DNA from: a virus
Length of the DNA: 23,013 bases
IMG/VR virus record: IMGVR_UViG_3300010883_005029
Span: 1-23,013 of that record
Strand: one strand, 5' to 3'
A program made the position numbers and the translations under genes. Shown piece after piece: positions 2,686 to 14,622 of the stretch (position 1 is its first letter; each line of letters starts with the position of its first letter). The notes beneath the pieces are model-generated. The model had not been told where the DNA came from. It worked only from the letters and a program-made list of their open reading frames with translations, and did not search any database.

Positions 2686-3104
2686 GTAACCAACACCTCA
2701 ACTAAATTCATCAATACAGCTGTGCCTGATATTGCACTGCCAATCATAATCGCTTTATCATTCCAGCAATGACCGACATATACCCAAGAAACTGCTGCTA
2801 ATGCATAACAGCCTTGTCCTAGTGTACCAAACCCAGCACTCATAATAAACACACCAACAACGCCAAGTATAGTTGCTAGCCACTTGACATAACTATCAAC
2901 AGTTCCTGTTGGCGTAGCTGGCTTCAGATCTTCTACTTCTAACTGCAGCTCTTCCATCTCCTGCTTGAGACGCCTGCGCTCAGCATTAAGTTCCATAGCA
3001 AGTCTTCCTGCTTTGGTCATCGTGCTGCCGGAAAACTCTTCCCTCACTTCAGAGCTGAGTTGACCTTCGACCATTGCTACTTGCTCTTTCTCACTCACAC
3101 TCAT
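2682..3104 (-). CDS. Coiled-coil membrane protein of unknown function
   Basis: The 140-residue protein has an N-terminal soluble half with a charged heptad-like stretch (about residues 38-61, LNAERRRLKQEMEELQLEVEDL), a short PATPTG linker, and a C-terminal half with two to three hydrophobic segments (about 74-93, 97-112 and 118-138). This layout suggests a coiled coil anchored in the inner membrane. It overlaps dexA upstream and the 59-residue membrane-protein gene downstream by four bases each, so the three are likely translationally coupled. I cannot assign a function; a membrane link for the replication machinery or a holin-like role are both speculative. Confidence 0.75.
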   Translation of the reverse strand: MSVSEKEQVAMVEGQLSSEVREEFSGSTMTKAGRLAMELNAERRRLKQEMEELQLEVEDLKPATPTGTVDSYVKWLATILGVVGVFIMSAGFGTLGQGCYALAAVSWVYVGHCWNDKAIMIGSAISGTAVLMNLVEVLVT

Positions 3105-3700
3105 ACGTCCATATCAAGTCGAGCCAAGTATTGCATACGCATAACATCCATCACAACATCATGCTTCGGGTCGTGGCCAATAAACTTCGGGGCTAATTCA
3201 TCTGGGATAAATGAATTCTTAATTCCTGAACCGAATAGCATACCATCAAGGAATGATCGTGTGTCGCGAATTGCCCACCACTGTTTAAATGGATCCTCAT
3301 CGCCAGTGGCGTCAAGTATAGTACGAAGGAAGATTGGGTCAAATGTATTCCCGCGAGTCCAAACAGCTTTCGCTTTACTTATCTGGAACTCTGTAGTCAT
3401 CCACTCATACAGATCAGATATAGAAACATCATCTGAGGAAGGCTTCAGTTGCTTCTGCGCTTCTGCGCCTTGCTTCTTCCACCAATCCAATGTACTCTTT
3501 TGGATAGTTCGGTTATACTCTTTGACTTGCTCTTGGACGTCGAACTTGATAGTCTTAGTCATGCCTAGAAGCTCTTCATACTCATAGCCATCACCCTTAG
3601 TGTATCGGCTCGTATCAAACTGTAGGCATGCCAGACTAACAACAGCACCAGTGAACATATTTTGACTCAGCGTTTCGAAGTCATAGATTATACTGTTCAT
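3101..3700 (-). CDS. dexA: DexA-type 3'-5' exonuclease
   Basis: The 199-residue product is a DEDDh (DnaQ-like) exonuclease that matches T4 DexA: IIYDFETLS at the N-terminus (D7, E9), IKFDVQEQ, STLDWWKKQGAEAQK, RGNTFDPIFL (D121), WAIRDTRSF and HDPKHDVVMD (H176, D181). These residues bind the two catalytic metal ions. T4 DexA degrades DNA from 3' ends and is non-essential. I chose ATG 3700 because a strong GAGGAG Shine-Dalgarno lies just upstream; longer frames lack the support. The start lies 20 nt inside the end of the upstream gene. Placing dexA between clamp-loader genes differs from T4, where it sits elsewhere. Confidence 0.9.
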   Translation of the reverse strand: MNSIIYDFETLSQNMFTGAVVSLACLQFDTSRYTKGDGYEYEELLGMTKTIKFDVQEQVKEYNRTIQKSTLDWWKKQGAEAQKQLKPSSDDVSISDLYEWMTTEFQISKAKAVWTRGNTFDPIFLRTILDATGDEDPFKQWWAIRDTRSFLDGMLFGSGIKNSFIPDELAPKFIGHDPKHDVVMDVMRMQYLARLDMDV

Positions 3701-4130
3701 CTGTGCCCTCCTCAACGATATCAAGTTCACCGCAAAGAGTGACTTCATTGTCAAAGGAATAGTACCCTGCTTCTTCTAGATACTCATACCCATCTATATA
3801 GTATCCTTCCCGTAAATTCTCTTCTTCCAGTTCAGAGATACGCTCACCGTGGAAAGTTAAATCATCTCCGCAACCGTCCCAAGTCATTTGGAACTCATTT
3901 TCTTCAAACTCGTGCGGGAAGAACTCATCATCCTCACCATTATCTAAAGCAAGAGTCAAATTTTCAACTTCTTCCTCACTTTGTGGAGTGACGTTAGTAG
4001 TGCCTCCGCGCCAAACTATAGTTATCTCAATCACAACCCCATTATCGTCATGTTGTAATGATTCTGATTCAATCCAACACTTCTTCCGCTTAGGAGATAC
4101 CGCATACGTCTTACCGATTTCAATAGTCAT
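3681..4130 (-). CDS. Hypothetical acidic protein in the clamp-loader operon
   Basis: The 149-residue product is strongly acidic, especially after residue 50 (runs such as SEEEVENL, NGEDDEFFPHEFEENEF and EEGTDEQYNL). It begins MTIEIGKTYAVSPKRKKCW, a strand-rich region that looks like a small SH3-like barrel. There are no membrane segments or recognised motifs. The ATG at 4130 starts one base after the gene 44 stop (4132-4134), with GAGTGG as a modest Shine-Dalgarno; an in-frame ATG at 4151 would overlap gene 44. Its place in the operon suggests early expression, perhaps as a protein that binds a replication or host factor, but this is inference. Confidence 0.65.
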   Translation of the reverse strand: MTIEIGKTYAVSPKRKKCWIESESLQHDDNGVVIEITIVWRGGTTNVTPQSEEEVENLTLALDNGEDDEFFPHEFEENEFQMTWDGCGDDLTFHGERISELEEENLREGYYIDGYEYLEEAGYYSFDNEVTLCGELDIVEEGTDEQYNL

Positions 4131-4131
4131 A

Positions 4132-5073
4132 TCAATTCCACTCACAATCAATCATCAATTCAGTTAACATAGCCATCATATTGATCTCAGCATCAGCAGC
4201 GAATGCAGCTTTATACTGATAATCAGCCAGAGTGACTACAACCTGCGGGACGCTGGTCGGCTTGATATACTGACTAGCATTATCGTATATCGAACGAAAC
4301 ACTTGAGTTGTATCACCGTCAATATTCTGCGCGACCCACTTCCGCACCTTGCTAAACTCTTTAGCTTTCAAGGAAGCCATCAAAGACTTCATATTAACAT
4401 CAGAGAAGTTTACAAGAATACCAGCATCAATTTTACCTGTGGCAGAATATCTTTGAAGCTCGTTCAATACCCTGCGATTATCTGGGAAATGCTTTTTAAC
4501 CACCTCGGCGACGGTCGCTTGATCAAACTCTACACCCTGTTCATTTAGGATTTTACATACACGTTTGAAGAACTCGCCTGCGAGTTTAGGTTTATCAGCT
4601 GTCTCCATTTTAAACTCTACAACTGAACACCGTGATCTCAGGGGTTCAATCAGTTTATTAGAGAAGTTACAAGTCATAATGAAACCGCAGTTTGCACTAT
4701 ACTCCTCCATGAAGTTCCTGAGAGCAGGTTGGACGGTCTCAGCATTCAGGTAGTCGGCTTCGTCTAGGATAACATACTTCCGACCACCAGACAAAGACAT
4801 CGAAGAAGCGAATCCTTTGATCTTTGTACGCAAAGTGTCAATCAACCGACCTTCATCAGATCCGTTAATGACAATGTAATCTGCGCCAAGTTCTTCTAAC
4901 ATCGCTTTGGCTATAGTTGTTTTGCCCACACCAGCGGTGCCAGTGAGAAGGAGGTTGGGCACATTCTTACTATTAACAAACTGTTGGAATGTGTCTTTCA
5001 ACTTCTTTGGCAGGATAGTATCGGCGACGGTCTTTGGTCGATACAACTCAACCCACAAATATTCTTCTAACAT
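4132..5073 (-). CDS. 44: Clamp loader large subunit gp44 (AAA+ ATPase)
   Basis: The 313-residue AAA+ protein is the T4 gp44 homologue (RFC-like). It shows WVELYRPKTV near the start, Walker A GTAGVGKT at 45-52, Walker B VILDEAD at 101-107, the SRC arginine-finger motif at 147-149, and C-terminal collar-like helices. Four gp44 and one gp62 form the loader that places gp45 on DNA. The start is ATG 5073 with GGAG upstream; the TTG six codons earlier is not needed and overlaps the Shine-Dalgarno. A good sigma70-type promoter lies 26 nt upstream, so gene 44 can be transcribed separately from gene 45. Confidence 0.95.
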   Translation of the reverse strand: MLEEYLWVELYRPKTVADTILPKKLKDTFQQFVNSKNVPNLLLTGTAGVGKTTIAKAMLEELGADYIVINGSDEGRLIDTLRTKIKGFASSMSLSGGRKYVILDEADYLNAETVQPALRNFMEEYSANCGFIMTCNFSNKLIEPLRSRCSVVEFKMETADKPKLAGEFFKRVCKILNEQGVEFDQATVAEVVKKHFPDNRRVLNELQRYSATGKIDAGILVNFSDVNMKSLMASLKAKEFSKVRKWVAQNIDGDTTQVFRSIYDNASQYIKPTSVPQVVVTLADYQYKAAFAADAEINMMAMLTELMIDCEWN

Positions 5074-5134: not shown

Positions 5135-5398
5135 TTACCTGATTGGCTTCCAGCCAGTGACAGTAGAAACTCTAAAGGATCGCCAAGCTTTCACGTCCAT
5201 TCCCCAAACAGCTATGTTATCAGACCCAGAATCAATTGAGCCTACTGTAATACTTTTCCCTATCTCACTTTCAAGTATTGCTGGATTGAGAGTGCAAGGC
5301 ATCACTCGTGTGCCGCCATCATTAATCTTTTCAAATGTTACTTCAACCAAACCTTCTTTGAGGTGCTTGATCAAATCATTCACAACTGCAGGTATCAT
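5135..5398 (-). CDS. DUF2693-like small phage protein
   Basis: The 87-residue protein has the pattern of a small beta-barrel phage family often labelled DUF2693: VTFEKINDGGTRVMPCTLNP in the first half and a C-terminal VWGMDVKAWRSFRVSTVTGW. The pairing of a (T)RxMxCTL motif with a terminal WRSFRxxS motif is what I used; the assignment is from memory. No function is established for the family that I can cite. Its ATG overlaps the stop of the FkbM gene by one base (TAATG), so it is translationally coupled. It ends before the gene 44 promoter. Confidence 0.65.
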   Translation of the reverse strand: MIPAVVNDLIKHLKEGLVEVTFEKINDGGTRVMPCTLNPAILESEIGKSITVGSIDSGSDNIAVWGMDVKAWRSFRVSTVTGWKPIR

Positions 5399-5973
5399 TA
5401 CACAACTCCGTATATATCTTGCGCTTCAGTCCAAACCATGTATCCATGAGACCTTAATAAATTACACATCTTCTTATCATCTATGTGCGAGTGTTCAACT
5501 TTTATCATAGTGGGTTTGACTCTCCACGAATACGTTCCGAGTATGTTCATCTCATGACCTTCAGTATCAATCTTCATAAAGTCTAGATGATCAATATGCG
5601 ATTCTGTCAGAAACGTATCTAGAGTTGAGCATGGAACTGTGATAGTATCTTCAATGAACTGTCTCAGATCAGGTTGATCAAGCAAGCGTTCGCCAAGGTG
5701 ATTGTTAGCAGCTACAGTGCCTATCCCCTTAATCCAACCAGTCCCATCAAGTGTCGTATGAAATTTAACAAATCCATCATAGTCAGTGAGTGCTATATTA
5801 CTAACCACCACATCATAATCTGCAGATCTAGATTTCATTATCTTGGCATATTTCGGATCACCTTCAATCATGAATCCCGACCAGCCTTCCTTGGCCAAGG
5901 GAAGACACGTGTCGAAATCACACGTGCCTATCTCCAAAAATACCTTAGTAGCAAGAACGGCTTTAGCTGCCAT
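5398..5973 (-). CDS. FkbM-family SAM-dependent methyltransferase
   Basis: The 191-residue product has a Rossmann methyltransferase layout: motif I VFLEIGTCDFDT (11-22), an acidic end of strand 2 in MIEGDP (35-40), and the FkbM-family signature LDFMKIDTEGHEMNIL (130-145). FkbM-type enzymes usually O-methylate sugars or small molecules; they are not known as DNA cytosine methyltransferases. The gene overlaps the end of gene 45 by 11 nt and the next gene by one base, so it belongs to the replication operon. A role in capping a modified nucleotide or glycan is conceivable given the glycosyltransferases in this window, but it is not shown by the sequence. Confidence 0.82.
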   Translation of the reverse strand: MAAKAVLATKVFLEIGTCDFDTCLPLAKEGWSGFMIEGDPKYAKIMKSRSADYDVVVSNIALTDYDGFVKFHTTLDGTGWIKGIGTVAANNHLGERLLDQPDLRQFIEDTITVPCSTLDTFLTESHIDHLDFMKIDTEGHEMNILGTYSWRVKPTMIKVEHSHIDDKKMCNLLRSHGYMVWTEAQDIYGVV

Positions 5974-12319: not shown

Positions 12320-13123
12320 TTAAAAGAAATCGCTTAATGTGGCTCCATCATGAATTGCCGTTCTTCTGTCTCGCAAGCGCAGCTCTGCATGACCTGTTGA
12401 TTTTCTCGTGTACATTGTACAGAGATCTGGGAATAGGTTTGCTATAATTTCTACACTCTCGCGTACATATTTCTCAGTGCGGACATCCTGTAAACCACCT
12501 TCTTCTTTATAATATCTAGACTTAACAGTATAATTATCCAATCGGCACAGTAAACCATTCTTCACATACTGACGAATAGAATACTCATAATCCTCACCGT
12601 GATTTGTTACACGGGCAAGGTCATCGTCATGCTCAACAACAACCCCAAACATTGATGCTATGATATAGCAAAGTTTATCATAAACCCTATCTTTCATAAA
12701 AAACGCATTTGATGCCGCATATATACCAAAGGTCTTTGCTCCTGAGGCAGCGCACTCATCAAACCCACGCTGGATAATTTCTTTCTCAAGGTCTTGTACA
12801 CGACCCAGTTTCTGTTCGCTGATTTTGACTTGAACTTCTTCAATATCATCATCAAACATCATCAAGTTGGTTCCCTCAGGATACCACTTCTCAATAAAGT
12901 TTCTCTGATGCCCGATAGTAGGAACGCCTCTCACGACTTCAATATCCTTGGCATAAGCATTACTCGCCAACGCTTCAGTATAGATGTCATACTCAGGCTC
13001 ATTGTCATTAATAAAAATCTTAATTCTTTTAGGGTCAATATCATATGACTCCAGAACCTTCAGAGTCTTTTCCTGAATAGTCGTTGATCGGTGGTATGAT
13101 GGTATCGCAATGCTATAATTCAT
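12320..13123 (-). CDS. Probable TET-associated glycosyltransferase (GT-A)
   Basis: The 267-residue protein is a compact GT-A transferase: first strand SIAIPSYHRS (4-13), strand IKIFINDNEPEYD, GHQRNF (71-76), metal-binding LMMFDDDIE (D91-D93), and HGEDYEYSIR (175-184) with the acidic residue expected of the catalytic base region. Short GT-A enzymes with this G-x-QRN and DDD arrangement, next to a TET/JBP dioxygenase gene, were described as TET-associated glycosyltransferases (TAGT); they are expected to attach a sugar to a hydroxymethylated base. The start is ATG 13123, as GAGGAA lies 7 nt upstream and overlaps the stop of the dioxygenase gene. Sugar donor unknown. Confidence 0.78.
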   Translation of the reverse strand: MNYSIAIPSYHRSTTIQEKTLKVLESYDIDPKRIKIFINDNEPEYDIYTEALASNAYAKDIEVVRGVPTIGHQRNFIEKWYPEGTNLMMFDDDIEEVQVKISEQKLGRVQDLEKEIIQRGFDECAASGAKTFGIYAASNAFFMKDRVYDKLCYIIASMFGVVVEHDDDLARVTNHGEDYEYSIRQYVKNGLLCRLDNYTVKSRYYKEEGGLQDVRTEKYVRESVEIIANLFPDLCTMYTRKSTGHAELRLRDRRTAIHDGATLSDFF

Positions 13124-13134
13124 AATTTGATTCC

Positions 13135-14475
13135 TCAAAAGAAACTTTCTAGTGATGTTTTTTGCTGTAACGCTTCTGGGTGATAATCGGCTACCATTTG
13201 ACGACCACCATGCGTTTCAAGGTAAGAATACCATTCGTCAGAGTCCCACATACTTGGGCTCACACCATTCCATAGATGCCTCCAAAGAGAATGTTCTTTA
13301 TTTAATCTGCGGTGATCAACAAACTCTTTGCGGATAATCTCATAATCATACGAACCCAGACTGACCATATTTTCTCTGAAGTAACAAACCAAAGATATAC
13401 GTTCCATATCAGCAAGCGTCATACCTTCTGGCGGCAACAGTTCAGTGTTTCCATGGATTCCTGCGTGGTTGTTGATTAGCAGCAAGTCGCCAGGACGAAT
13501 ATTAATCGCAATTCTGAACTCAGGCAACACAAGGTATCCACCAGTCCAATTCTTATCACCCTTGGCAACTACAGTCAAGTTTGAAAACCCTTCGGCCAAG
13601 TCACCAGCGTCTCTGTGACAAGCTGTACGGAAGTTCTTGTTAACAGTAATAGTGGTAAACGGTGTATCTTCACCAGCTACTCTGAATTTGGGATCAAGTT
13701 TTGCCGCAGTAGAATTTTGTATATCATATCTACTAGGAAGAAGTTCCGCAAACTTGTCTGACAGCTTTCGCATGAACGGATAACATTTAGAATACGTCTC
13801 AAAGTTCTGTTCAGTATATGCGGTTGACCTGCCATAAGGAATGCGAGGATAGCGATCAAAGAACCCTGCGATACCAGATAAAACTGTGTTGGCATATGTG
13901 GTCTCAGAAATCATTGTCTTCCTAACTAATAAAGCATCTGCGGTTGCTTCATCCGGAGACATTTCTGCCCACTGGCGCATCTTTTCTATGAAGTAGGATT
14001 CATAGTTATAGCCACTATCAGTGACCTTAGTGCGCAACCAAACAATACCTCGCGTATTAACACCATCAGGGTTTTCGTGCTTCTTTAAAATCTCAGCAAT
14101 AGGATCAGAATCGAACAAATTTGTTGTTTGATTGATGTAGTGCTCCATCACATCAAATTGCATTGGTGTGACCCAATCGCGACCACCTAGTCTGCCGCGT
14201 GTAGCACCAGCAGCCTTACCTCTATTTTGAGTTGGTAAAGCAGCACCCAATAGTCCATCATAAGCACCAACTTGCTCTTCTTTGGTGAATACACCACGCC
14301 TAAACTTAAAAATGATATTCTCTTCACTATTCACTTCACCAAAAGGAATTGGCGCATAGAAGTCCATATCGGAATCCACAACAATATCATAATCAGTATC
14401 TTCCATATACTGACCAATTTTATCCTCACAGTTCAGCCATTCTGGGGCTGTGATAACTTCCACACCATTATTCAT
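13135..14475 (-). CDS. TET/JBP-family 2-oxoglutarate/Fe(II) dioxygenase
   Basis: The 446-residue protein carries a C-terminal double-stranded beta-helix dioxygenase domain of TET/JBP type: ITVNKNFRTACHRDAGD with iron-binding H287 and D289, GGYLVLPEFRIAINIRPGDLL, distal iron ligand H341 in AGIHGNT, and the 2-oxoglutarate-binding R359 with S361 in RISLVCY. Such enzymes hydroxylate the methyl of 5-methylcytosine or thymine in DNA. The N-terminal 250 residues (KFRRGVF, RGKAAGATRGR) are not recognised and may bind DNA. It is followed 12 nt later by a TAGT-like gene, so the pair probably makes a glycosylated hydroxymethyl base. AAGG lies 9 nt before the ATG; a strong promoter lies 119 nt upstream. 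No C5-methyltransferase gene is visible in the window. Confidence 0.85.
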   Translation of the reverse strand: MNNGVEVITAPEWLNCEDKIGQYMEDTDYDIVVDSDMDFYAPIPFGEVNSEENIIFKFRRGVFTKEEQVGAYDGLLGAALPTQNRGKAAGATRGRLGGRDWVTPMQFDVMEHYINQTTNLFDSDPIAEILKKHENPDGVNTRGIVWLRTKVTDSGYNYESYFIEKMRQWAEMSPDEATADALLVRKTMISETTYANTVLSGIAGFFDRYPRIPYGRSTAYTEQNFETYSKCYPFMRKLSDKFAELLPSRYDIQNSTAAKLDPKFRVAGEDTPFTTITVNKNFRTACHRDAGDLAEGFSNLTVVAKGDKNWTGGYLVLPEFRIAINIRPGDLLLINNHAGIHGNTELLPPEGMTLADMERISLVCYFRENMVSLGSYDYEIIRKEFVDHRRLNKEHSLWRHLWNGVSPSMWDSDEWYSYLETHGGRQMVADYHPEALQQKTSLESFF

Positions 14476-14593
14476 ATACTATAACCTTACACTCTTCTAG
14501 TCGACGATTCGACATCATAATTCCATATAAATGATCATCAGGTGCTACTGCTGATGATAACCAAATAAATAGAAACATTTTAACATACTTCAT
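14468..14593 (-). CDS. Possible 41-residue peptide in the dioxygenase leader
   Basis: An open frame from ATG 14591-14593 to TAA 14468-14470 encodes MKYVKMFLFIWLSSAVAPDD, then a charged tail ending CKVIVYE. The start looks like a short signal peptide, and the frame overlaps the dioxygenase ATG by 8 nt. Against it: the ATG directly abuts the promoter -10 box, so it would lie upstream of the expected transcript start, and no Shine-Dalgarno is present. The in-frame ATG at 14578 would be nearly leaderless. It could be translated from read-through transcripts, act as a leader peptide, or be chance. Confidence 0.3.
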   Translation of the reverse strand: MKYVKMFLFIWLSSAVAPDDHLYGIMMSNRRLEECKVIVYE

Positions 14594-14622
14594 AGTATAA
14601 CTCATTACCTTGAAGTTGTCAA
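14594..14622 (-). promoter_or_regulatory. Sigma70-type promoter for the TET/glycosyltransferase pair
   Basis: Minus-strand TTGACA (14622-14617, consensus -35), 17 bp spacer, TATACT (14599-14594). It overlaps the last codons of def. The transcript would carry a leader of about 110 nt before the dioxygenase ATG, far longer than the leaders of the other five promoters of this type. Confidence 0.7.

Follow-up and report, generated by a model that had tools for sequence, protein, structure and literature searches.

The stretch of DNA analysed here, which we call the window, is a viral contig of 23,013 bases whose minus strand carries all of its main genes. It is a 23-kb fragment of a phage genome, and gene absences reported for it cover that fragment only. 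T4-like myovirus markers are present (gp23, UvsY, UvsW, a gp55-type sigma factor, gp46/47, gp45 and gp44), together with adjacent genes for a TET/JBP dioxygenase and a TAGT-family glycosyltransferase (Table 1). The first-pass annotation, made from the sequence alone, had read this pair as a likely DNA hypermodification cassette. Profile matches, the predicted fold and the neighbouring genes agree with that reading, and we regard it as very probable, on grounds of homology, that TET and TAGT together form a phage DNA base-modification cassette.

Table 1. Features of the dioxygenase and glycosyltransferase locus (window coordinates).
Feature	Position	Strand	Basis
TAGT-family GT-A-type glycosyltransferase	12320..13138	(-)	Pfam TAGT, phrog_25200, phrog_842
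Glycosyltransferase tail codons (TLSDFF + flanks + stop), predicted gp45-binding peptide	12320..12346	(-)	tail likeness
TET/JBP-fold Fe(II)/2OG DNA dioxygenase, 446 aa	13135..14475	(-)	Pfam Tet_JBP, phrog_24024, model
TET tail codons (SLESFF + flanks + stop), predicted gp45-binding peptide	13135..13161	(-)	tail conservation, polymerase likeness
Possible small gene, 36-41 aa	14468..14593, inner ATG 14578	(-)	similar peptide in L002, L007
Sigma-70-type promoter TTGACA-17-TATACT	14594..14622	(-)	11/12 consensus matches; conserved site

Profile searches bear out both family assignments. The dioxygenase matches Tet_JBP (Pfam PF12851) at 86.2 bits against a cut-off of 34.9 and, over its whole length, phrog_24024 (E 4.8e-154), a family whose label names no function. 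The catalytic residues H287-R-D289, H341 and R359-I-S361 (the iron triad and the distal 2-oxoglutarate arginine) lie exactly where the first-pass annotation had put them, and all of 42 relatives keep H287, D289, H341 and R359 unchanged. A single-sequence PDB search with the TET gave weak CcTet matches only, and profile and fold comparison were needed to place it. In an AlphaFold model built with 42 sequences (mean pLDDT 85), the best 16 solved structures found by VIA-align were all of TET2 (Z 20.4), CMD1 (18.9), NgTET1 (18.7) or CcTet (17.7), followed by AlkB-type enzymes (Z at most 13.8), with TET2 superposing over 267 residues at an rmsd of 3.9; Foldseek likewise ranked TET2, CcTet, NgTET1 and CMD1 before FTO and AlkB. 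The N-terminal 250 or so residues, described at first pass as an unrecognised domain, proved to be part of the TET fold, since TET2, CMD1 and NgTET1 align from residue 1-2 of the model as far as about 389; the TET-type structures as a group run from model residue 1-3 to about 372-439. The window enzyme is predicted to oxidise a base in DNA, 5mC or T, at its 5-methyl group. The window residue aligned with N1387 of TET2 is D292, which is indecisive between cytosine and thymine. In isolated phages the TET relatives are annotated as "SNF2 DNA repair protein" or as hypothetical.

The glycosyltransferase is 272 aa long from a TTG, in a frame that overlaps the TET stop, and 267 aa long from the likely ATG, which lies 11 nt past that stop (12 nt in the first-pass annotation). 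The protein matches TAGT (Pfam PF20691) at 44.1 bits against a cut-off of 27.5, phrog_25200 (E 6e-41) and phrog_842, the beta-glucosyl-HMC-alpha-glucosyltransferase family (E 1.6e-11). The GHQRN and DDD motifs recognised earlier are at 76 and 96-98 of the 272-aa frame, and D96 and D97 are invariant. A single-sequence PDB search with this protein returned no matches, and its model (pLDDT 65.6) is too weak for a firm fold assignment, with GT-A-type structures matching at Z 5-7 and a best value of 7.1. The gene adjoins that of the TET/JBP enzyme in relatives as it does in the window, and its family membership suggests that it would add a sugar to the TET-oxidised base.

Promoter-like sites are no commoner in the window than in shuffled sequence (12 versus 10.7). 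The TTGACA-17-TATACT site that the first-pass annotation placed ahead of the pair is nevertheless very likely a real promoter, because it is kept at the same position in four relatives (L002, L007, L008 and L009) despite a changed spacer. Between this site and the TET gene lies a possible small gene whose stop overlaps the TET start and whose product has a hydrophobic beginning; a similar peptide is present in L002 and L007 (...WLSA.V.PDDHLYGI.MS.RRLEECK...), where the DNA has diverged.

A scan of viral contigs yielded 80 loci whose TETs share 45-77% identity with the query, and full-length TETs occur in the isolated phages C48C1 (52% identity), Stenotrophomonas DLP6 (49%) and Caulobacter Cr30 (42%); a search of plasmids gave no hit. 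When the neighbours of these TETs were clustered and compared with Pfam, they fell into two kinds: one comprising TAGT, GT-B, NAD epimerase, UDP-galactopyranose mutase and NTP transferase, and the other ADDT (PF18724), Ploopntkinase3 (PF18751), glutamine amidotransferase (GATase), amidoligase and GNAT, a set typical of thymidine hypermodification. TAGT is present in 20 of 49 records of relatives and ADDT in 17, and the scanned proteins of the window, a 23-kb fragment, hold no ADDT, aGPT-Pplase or 5hmU kinase. Closely similar TETs keep different company. Those of L017 (TAGT), L023 (GT-B) and L025 (ADDT and kinase) are 93-94% identical, and those of L053 (TAGT) and L067 (ADDT) are 82% identical. 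Module labels interleave on a tree of 46 TETs, where the ADDT label requires at least 10 changes over the starred branches and the TAGT label at least 7. In the alignment few columns separate TAGT-linked from ADDT-linked enzymes, and the catalytic and neighbouring columns that were examined are near-invariant across both groups. Judged from these comparisons, a TET whose partners change while its sequence stays 94% identical most likely acts on an unchanged substrate.

Other genes at these loci deserve mention. An FkbM-family methyltransferase (window 5398-5973, minus strand) adjoins the sliding clamp gene; we considered it as a decorating enzyme and set it aside, as it has matches in three relatives only and lies apart from the TET there. 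In Pelagibacter phage HTVC112P, the genes for an FkbM methyltransferase and a TET relative overlap directly, and the methyltransferase may decorate the modified base in that phage. The DLP6 protein AAY80_029 (L083, 6265-7956) has a nucleotidyltransferase domain in Pfam (NTP_transf_3 / NTP_transferase), and its cluster adjoins the TET in other contigs; it is the ModA of the DLP6 paper, if the tags of paper and record correspond, which they may not. Mycobacterium phage Acadian (L087) appears to carry another modification operon, in which a TAGT gene stands between one annotated "queuine tRNA-ribosyltransferase" (813-1691), a weak Tet_JBP match under the cut-off, and one annotated "terminase small subunit" (3022-3588), a Ploopntkinase3 match of 206 bits.

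In T4 and RB69, C-terminal tails of the kind found on the DNA polymerase bind the sliding clamp gp45. The two window enzymes end in similar tails, KTSLESFF in the TET and GATLSDFF in the glycosyltransferase. A tail of the form [ST]L[EDSG]xF[FL] followed by at most two residues is found on 55 of 627 non-redundant locus proteins, against 0.03 expected from shuffled tails, and its distribution is narrow: it occurs on 24 of 35 TETs, 14 of 16 B-family DNA polymerases, 4 of 4 and 3 of 5 members of the TAGT groups and 6 of 6 GNATs, as well as on GT-B, a few ADDTs and one 261-aa protein adjoining a TET, and is absent from 44 of the 50 families that have at least four members. Within the TET alignment the tail is kept after a variable linker. 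The polymerases of G002, which belongs to the window's own TET clade, G024 and C48C1 end in SSLEDFFG, ATLEDFFS and ATLEDFFG, and T4 gp43, which ends in ASLDFLFG, resembles the TET and TAGT tails. When stop-to-stop frames of the whole 168-kb DLP6 genome were searched and compared with its annotation, an LxxF[FL] tail occurred, among annotated genes, on those for TAGT, TET and DNA polymerase alone. From this pattern, we think it likely that TET and TAGT are tethered to the gp45 clamp through their tails. That both enzymes end in the polymerase's clamp-gripping tail also suggests that the DNA is disguised while it is being copied.

C48C1 (L114) encodes at 2969-3853, after its DNA polymerase gene, a protein with YPGGK and DPPY that resembles, in motifs only, a D12-type adenine DNA methyltransferase and ends in the clamp-like STLDAFFG. 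In Vibrio phage 1.244 (L103), a classical ADDT phage, a polymerase fragment (1018-2097) and the ADDT (3869-4999) share a tail, KKARKLW and HKTRKLW respectively, that differs from the clamp tail described here. The G002 polymerase (35512-39922; L116-L119) reads as two frames of 487 and 380 aa with one TGA inside the first match: the polymerase may be split, the gene may carry an insertion, or the assembly may be wrong.

The first-pass annotation had left the choice between cytosine and thymine open, and the gene context of the relatives now favours thymine. It had noted that no C5-methyltransferase was visible, and indeed no C5-cytosine methyltransferase (PF00145) was found in the window (a 23-kb fragment), in the complete genomes of C48C1, DLP6 and Cr30, or in contigs of 170 kb and 145 kb; across related records, the family is present in 4 of 48 and absent from 44. 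A hydroxymethylase of the thymidylate synthase type (PF00303) was likewise not found in complete C48C1 and DLP6 or in the 170-kb and 145-kb contigs, and DLP6 is annotated with a FAD-dependent thymidylate synthase. The single PF00303 match among 29 TET- or TAGT-bearing records is a protein of Cr30 annotated as thymidylate synthase (373 bits). As a control, six of six phages with ADDT or thymidine hypermodification (Ag3, Vibrio 1.244, Cygsa01, phiA8-29, phiW-14 and M6) carry a divergent PF00303 protein (40-66 bits) and no Tet_JBP. Since complete DLP6 and C48C1 lack both the C5-methyltransferase and the hydroxymethylase, while classical ADDT phages have the latter without a TET, the simplest reading is that the TET probably stands in for the hydroxymethylase that works on nucleotides, by converting thymine in DNA to 5hmU. 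Context and homology taken together, we hold with reasonable confidence that the target would be thymine in DNA, giving 5-hydroxymethyluracil. The ADDT-type pathways of M6, ViI and phiW-14 go via 5hmdU (PMC6449724).

We therefore propose a model in which the TET/JBP dioxygenase, whose fold is supported by the comparisons above, would hydroxylate the 5-methyl group of thymine in new phage DNA to give 5-hydroxymethyluracil, and the TAGT enzyme would then sugar that hydroxyl, yielding a base-J-like glycosyl-5hmU. The [ST]LExFF-type tails would hold both enzymes on gp45, such that modification follows replication, and the product would serve to resist host nucleases. In related phages the oxidised base would instead be passed to GT-B, or to a kinase and an amino acid:DNA transferase. 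Taken as a whole, this post-replicative, clamp-tethered, nuclease-resisting cassette converting thymine to glycosyl-5hmU is the account we favour, with moderate confidence. DNA protection in the window phage is plausible, the nearest support being by analogy with DLP6, which has both genes and whose DNA is listed as resistant to restriction enzymes in a review by the group that published the DLP6 paper (PMC8228603).

The most serious competitor, which we consider unlikely, is that the TET oxidises 5mC, made by a host methyltransferase or by a phage one encoded outside the contig, to 5hmC, which TAGT then glycosylates. Burke et al. reportedly showed in 2021 that phage TETs act on 5mC, and another paper cites that study for this activity (PMC11404850). 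The closest structural matches of the dioxygenase are 5mC oxidases, although these are the solved structures available, and PF00145 is present in four contigs. In T2/T6 the described substrate of TAGT is glucosyl-hmC, which also counts against thymine. The DLP6 restriction panel, of 18 enzymes, included GC-only sites, and resistance at all of these would fit a modified C better than a modified T. On the other side, PF00145 is missing from the window, from most related records and from complete C48C1 and DLP6; of the PF00145-bearing contigs, the two represented on the tree, L035 and L047, have TETs that group with L040 in a single clade, distant and separate; the C5-methyltransferases found in relatives are without a clamp tail; and TETs 93-94% identical to one another occur with thymidine-type decorating enzymes.

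Two other possibilities concern what the cassette is for and what it acts on. The modification might be a mark that is sparse or tied to particular sequences, timing transcription or packaging for instance, and not a bulk protection; base J is such a mark in kinetoplastids (PMC7055916). Clamp tethering and the varied sugar and amino decorations look more like bulk anti-nuclease modification, and DLP6 DNA is resistant to restriction (PMC8228603), and we judge a mark of this kind improbable. Still less probable is a substrate other than DNA for the two enzymes, namely proteins, RNA or surface sugars. Many phage 2OG oxygenases and glycosyltransferases have such roles, and the glycosyltransferase was modelled with low confidence (pLDDT 65.6; top Z 7.1), but the structural comparison, which the first-pass annotation had named as one point on which its reading could fail, sets TET-type folds at Z 17-20 against at most 13.8 for AlkB-type enzymes and protein hydroxylases, and membership of the TAGT family, the polymerase-type tail and the ADDT and kinase partners all point to DNA.

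Iyer et al. reportedly predicted phage TET and TAGT DNA modification systems in 2013, and Burke et al. reportedly demonstrated them on 5mC in 2021. The window pair shares with these systems a TET/JBP enzyme followed by a TAGT, both above their family cut-offs (PF12851 and PF20691), and differs in that complete relatives lack a C5-methyltransferase, the TET swaps glycosyl and ADDT partners, and clamp tails are present. With kinetoplastid base J (JBP1/2 and the J glucosyltransferase) it would share hydroxylation of thymine in DNA and subsequent glycosylation, whereas the enzymes here are those of a phage, TAGT replaces JGT and the presumed role is anti-restriction; according to a 2019 paper, glucosylated 5hmdU was then unreported in phage (PMC6449724). 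The thymidine hypermodification of M6, ViI and phiW-14 has ADDT and kinase enzymes, as seen beside the TETs of relatives, and 5hmU as a common intermediate, but those phages make 5hmdUMP before replication with a thymidylate synthase homologue, whereas the TET here would act in DNA and the window has a glycosyltransferase in place of ADDT. In Rhodococcus phage Tonitrus, a tet-like J-binding protein stands beside aGPT-Pplase2 and a 5-hmU DNA kinase, with no glycosyltransferase named, in another phage group and with no clamp tail reported (PMC11955845). A link between TET and thymine has thus already been proposed, as that set was predicted in 2025 to carry out thymidine hypermodification (PMC11955845); a glycosylated version with clamp tails and module exchange was not described in the literature searched. 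T4 alpha-glucosyltransferase, too, modifies DNA and is reported to bind the clamp gp45, although the share of alpha-glucosylation in T4 is not set by that interaction (PMC13216743); it differs in lacking a SLDFLF-like C-terminus, and T4 makes its 5hmC before replication.

The broadest form of our proposal is that these phages make base J from thymine by means of a clamp-riding TET and glycosyltransferase, that the tail is an address tag of DNA-modifying enzymes, and that a single TET works as a hub to which either sugar-adding or amino acid-adding modules can be coupled in exchange; we regard it as evenly poised. Cultured DLP6 and Cr30 make these hypotheses directly testable. The clamp tail offers a sequence rule, a polymerase-like C-terminal peptide, by which unknown DNA-modifying enzymes of T4-like phages could be recognised. 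It also offers a testable mechanism by which modification may keep pace with replication. Should the proposal hold, a nucleotide resembling base J would occur in phages, derived from normal thymine oxidised after replication; neither the nucleotide pools nor the polymerase would have to change, and the roles of phage TETs would be broadened beyond 5mC.
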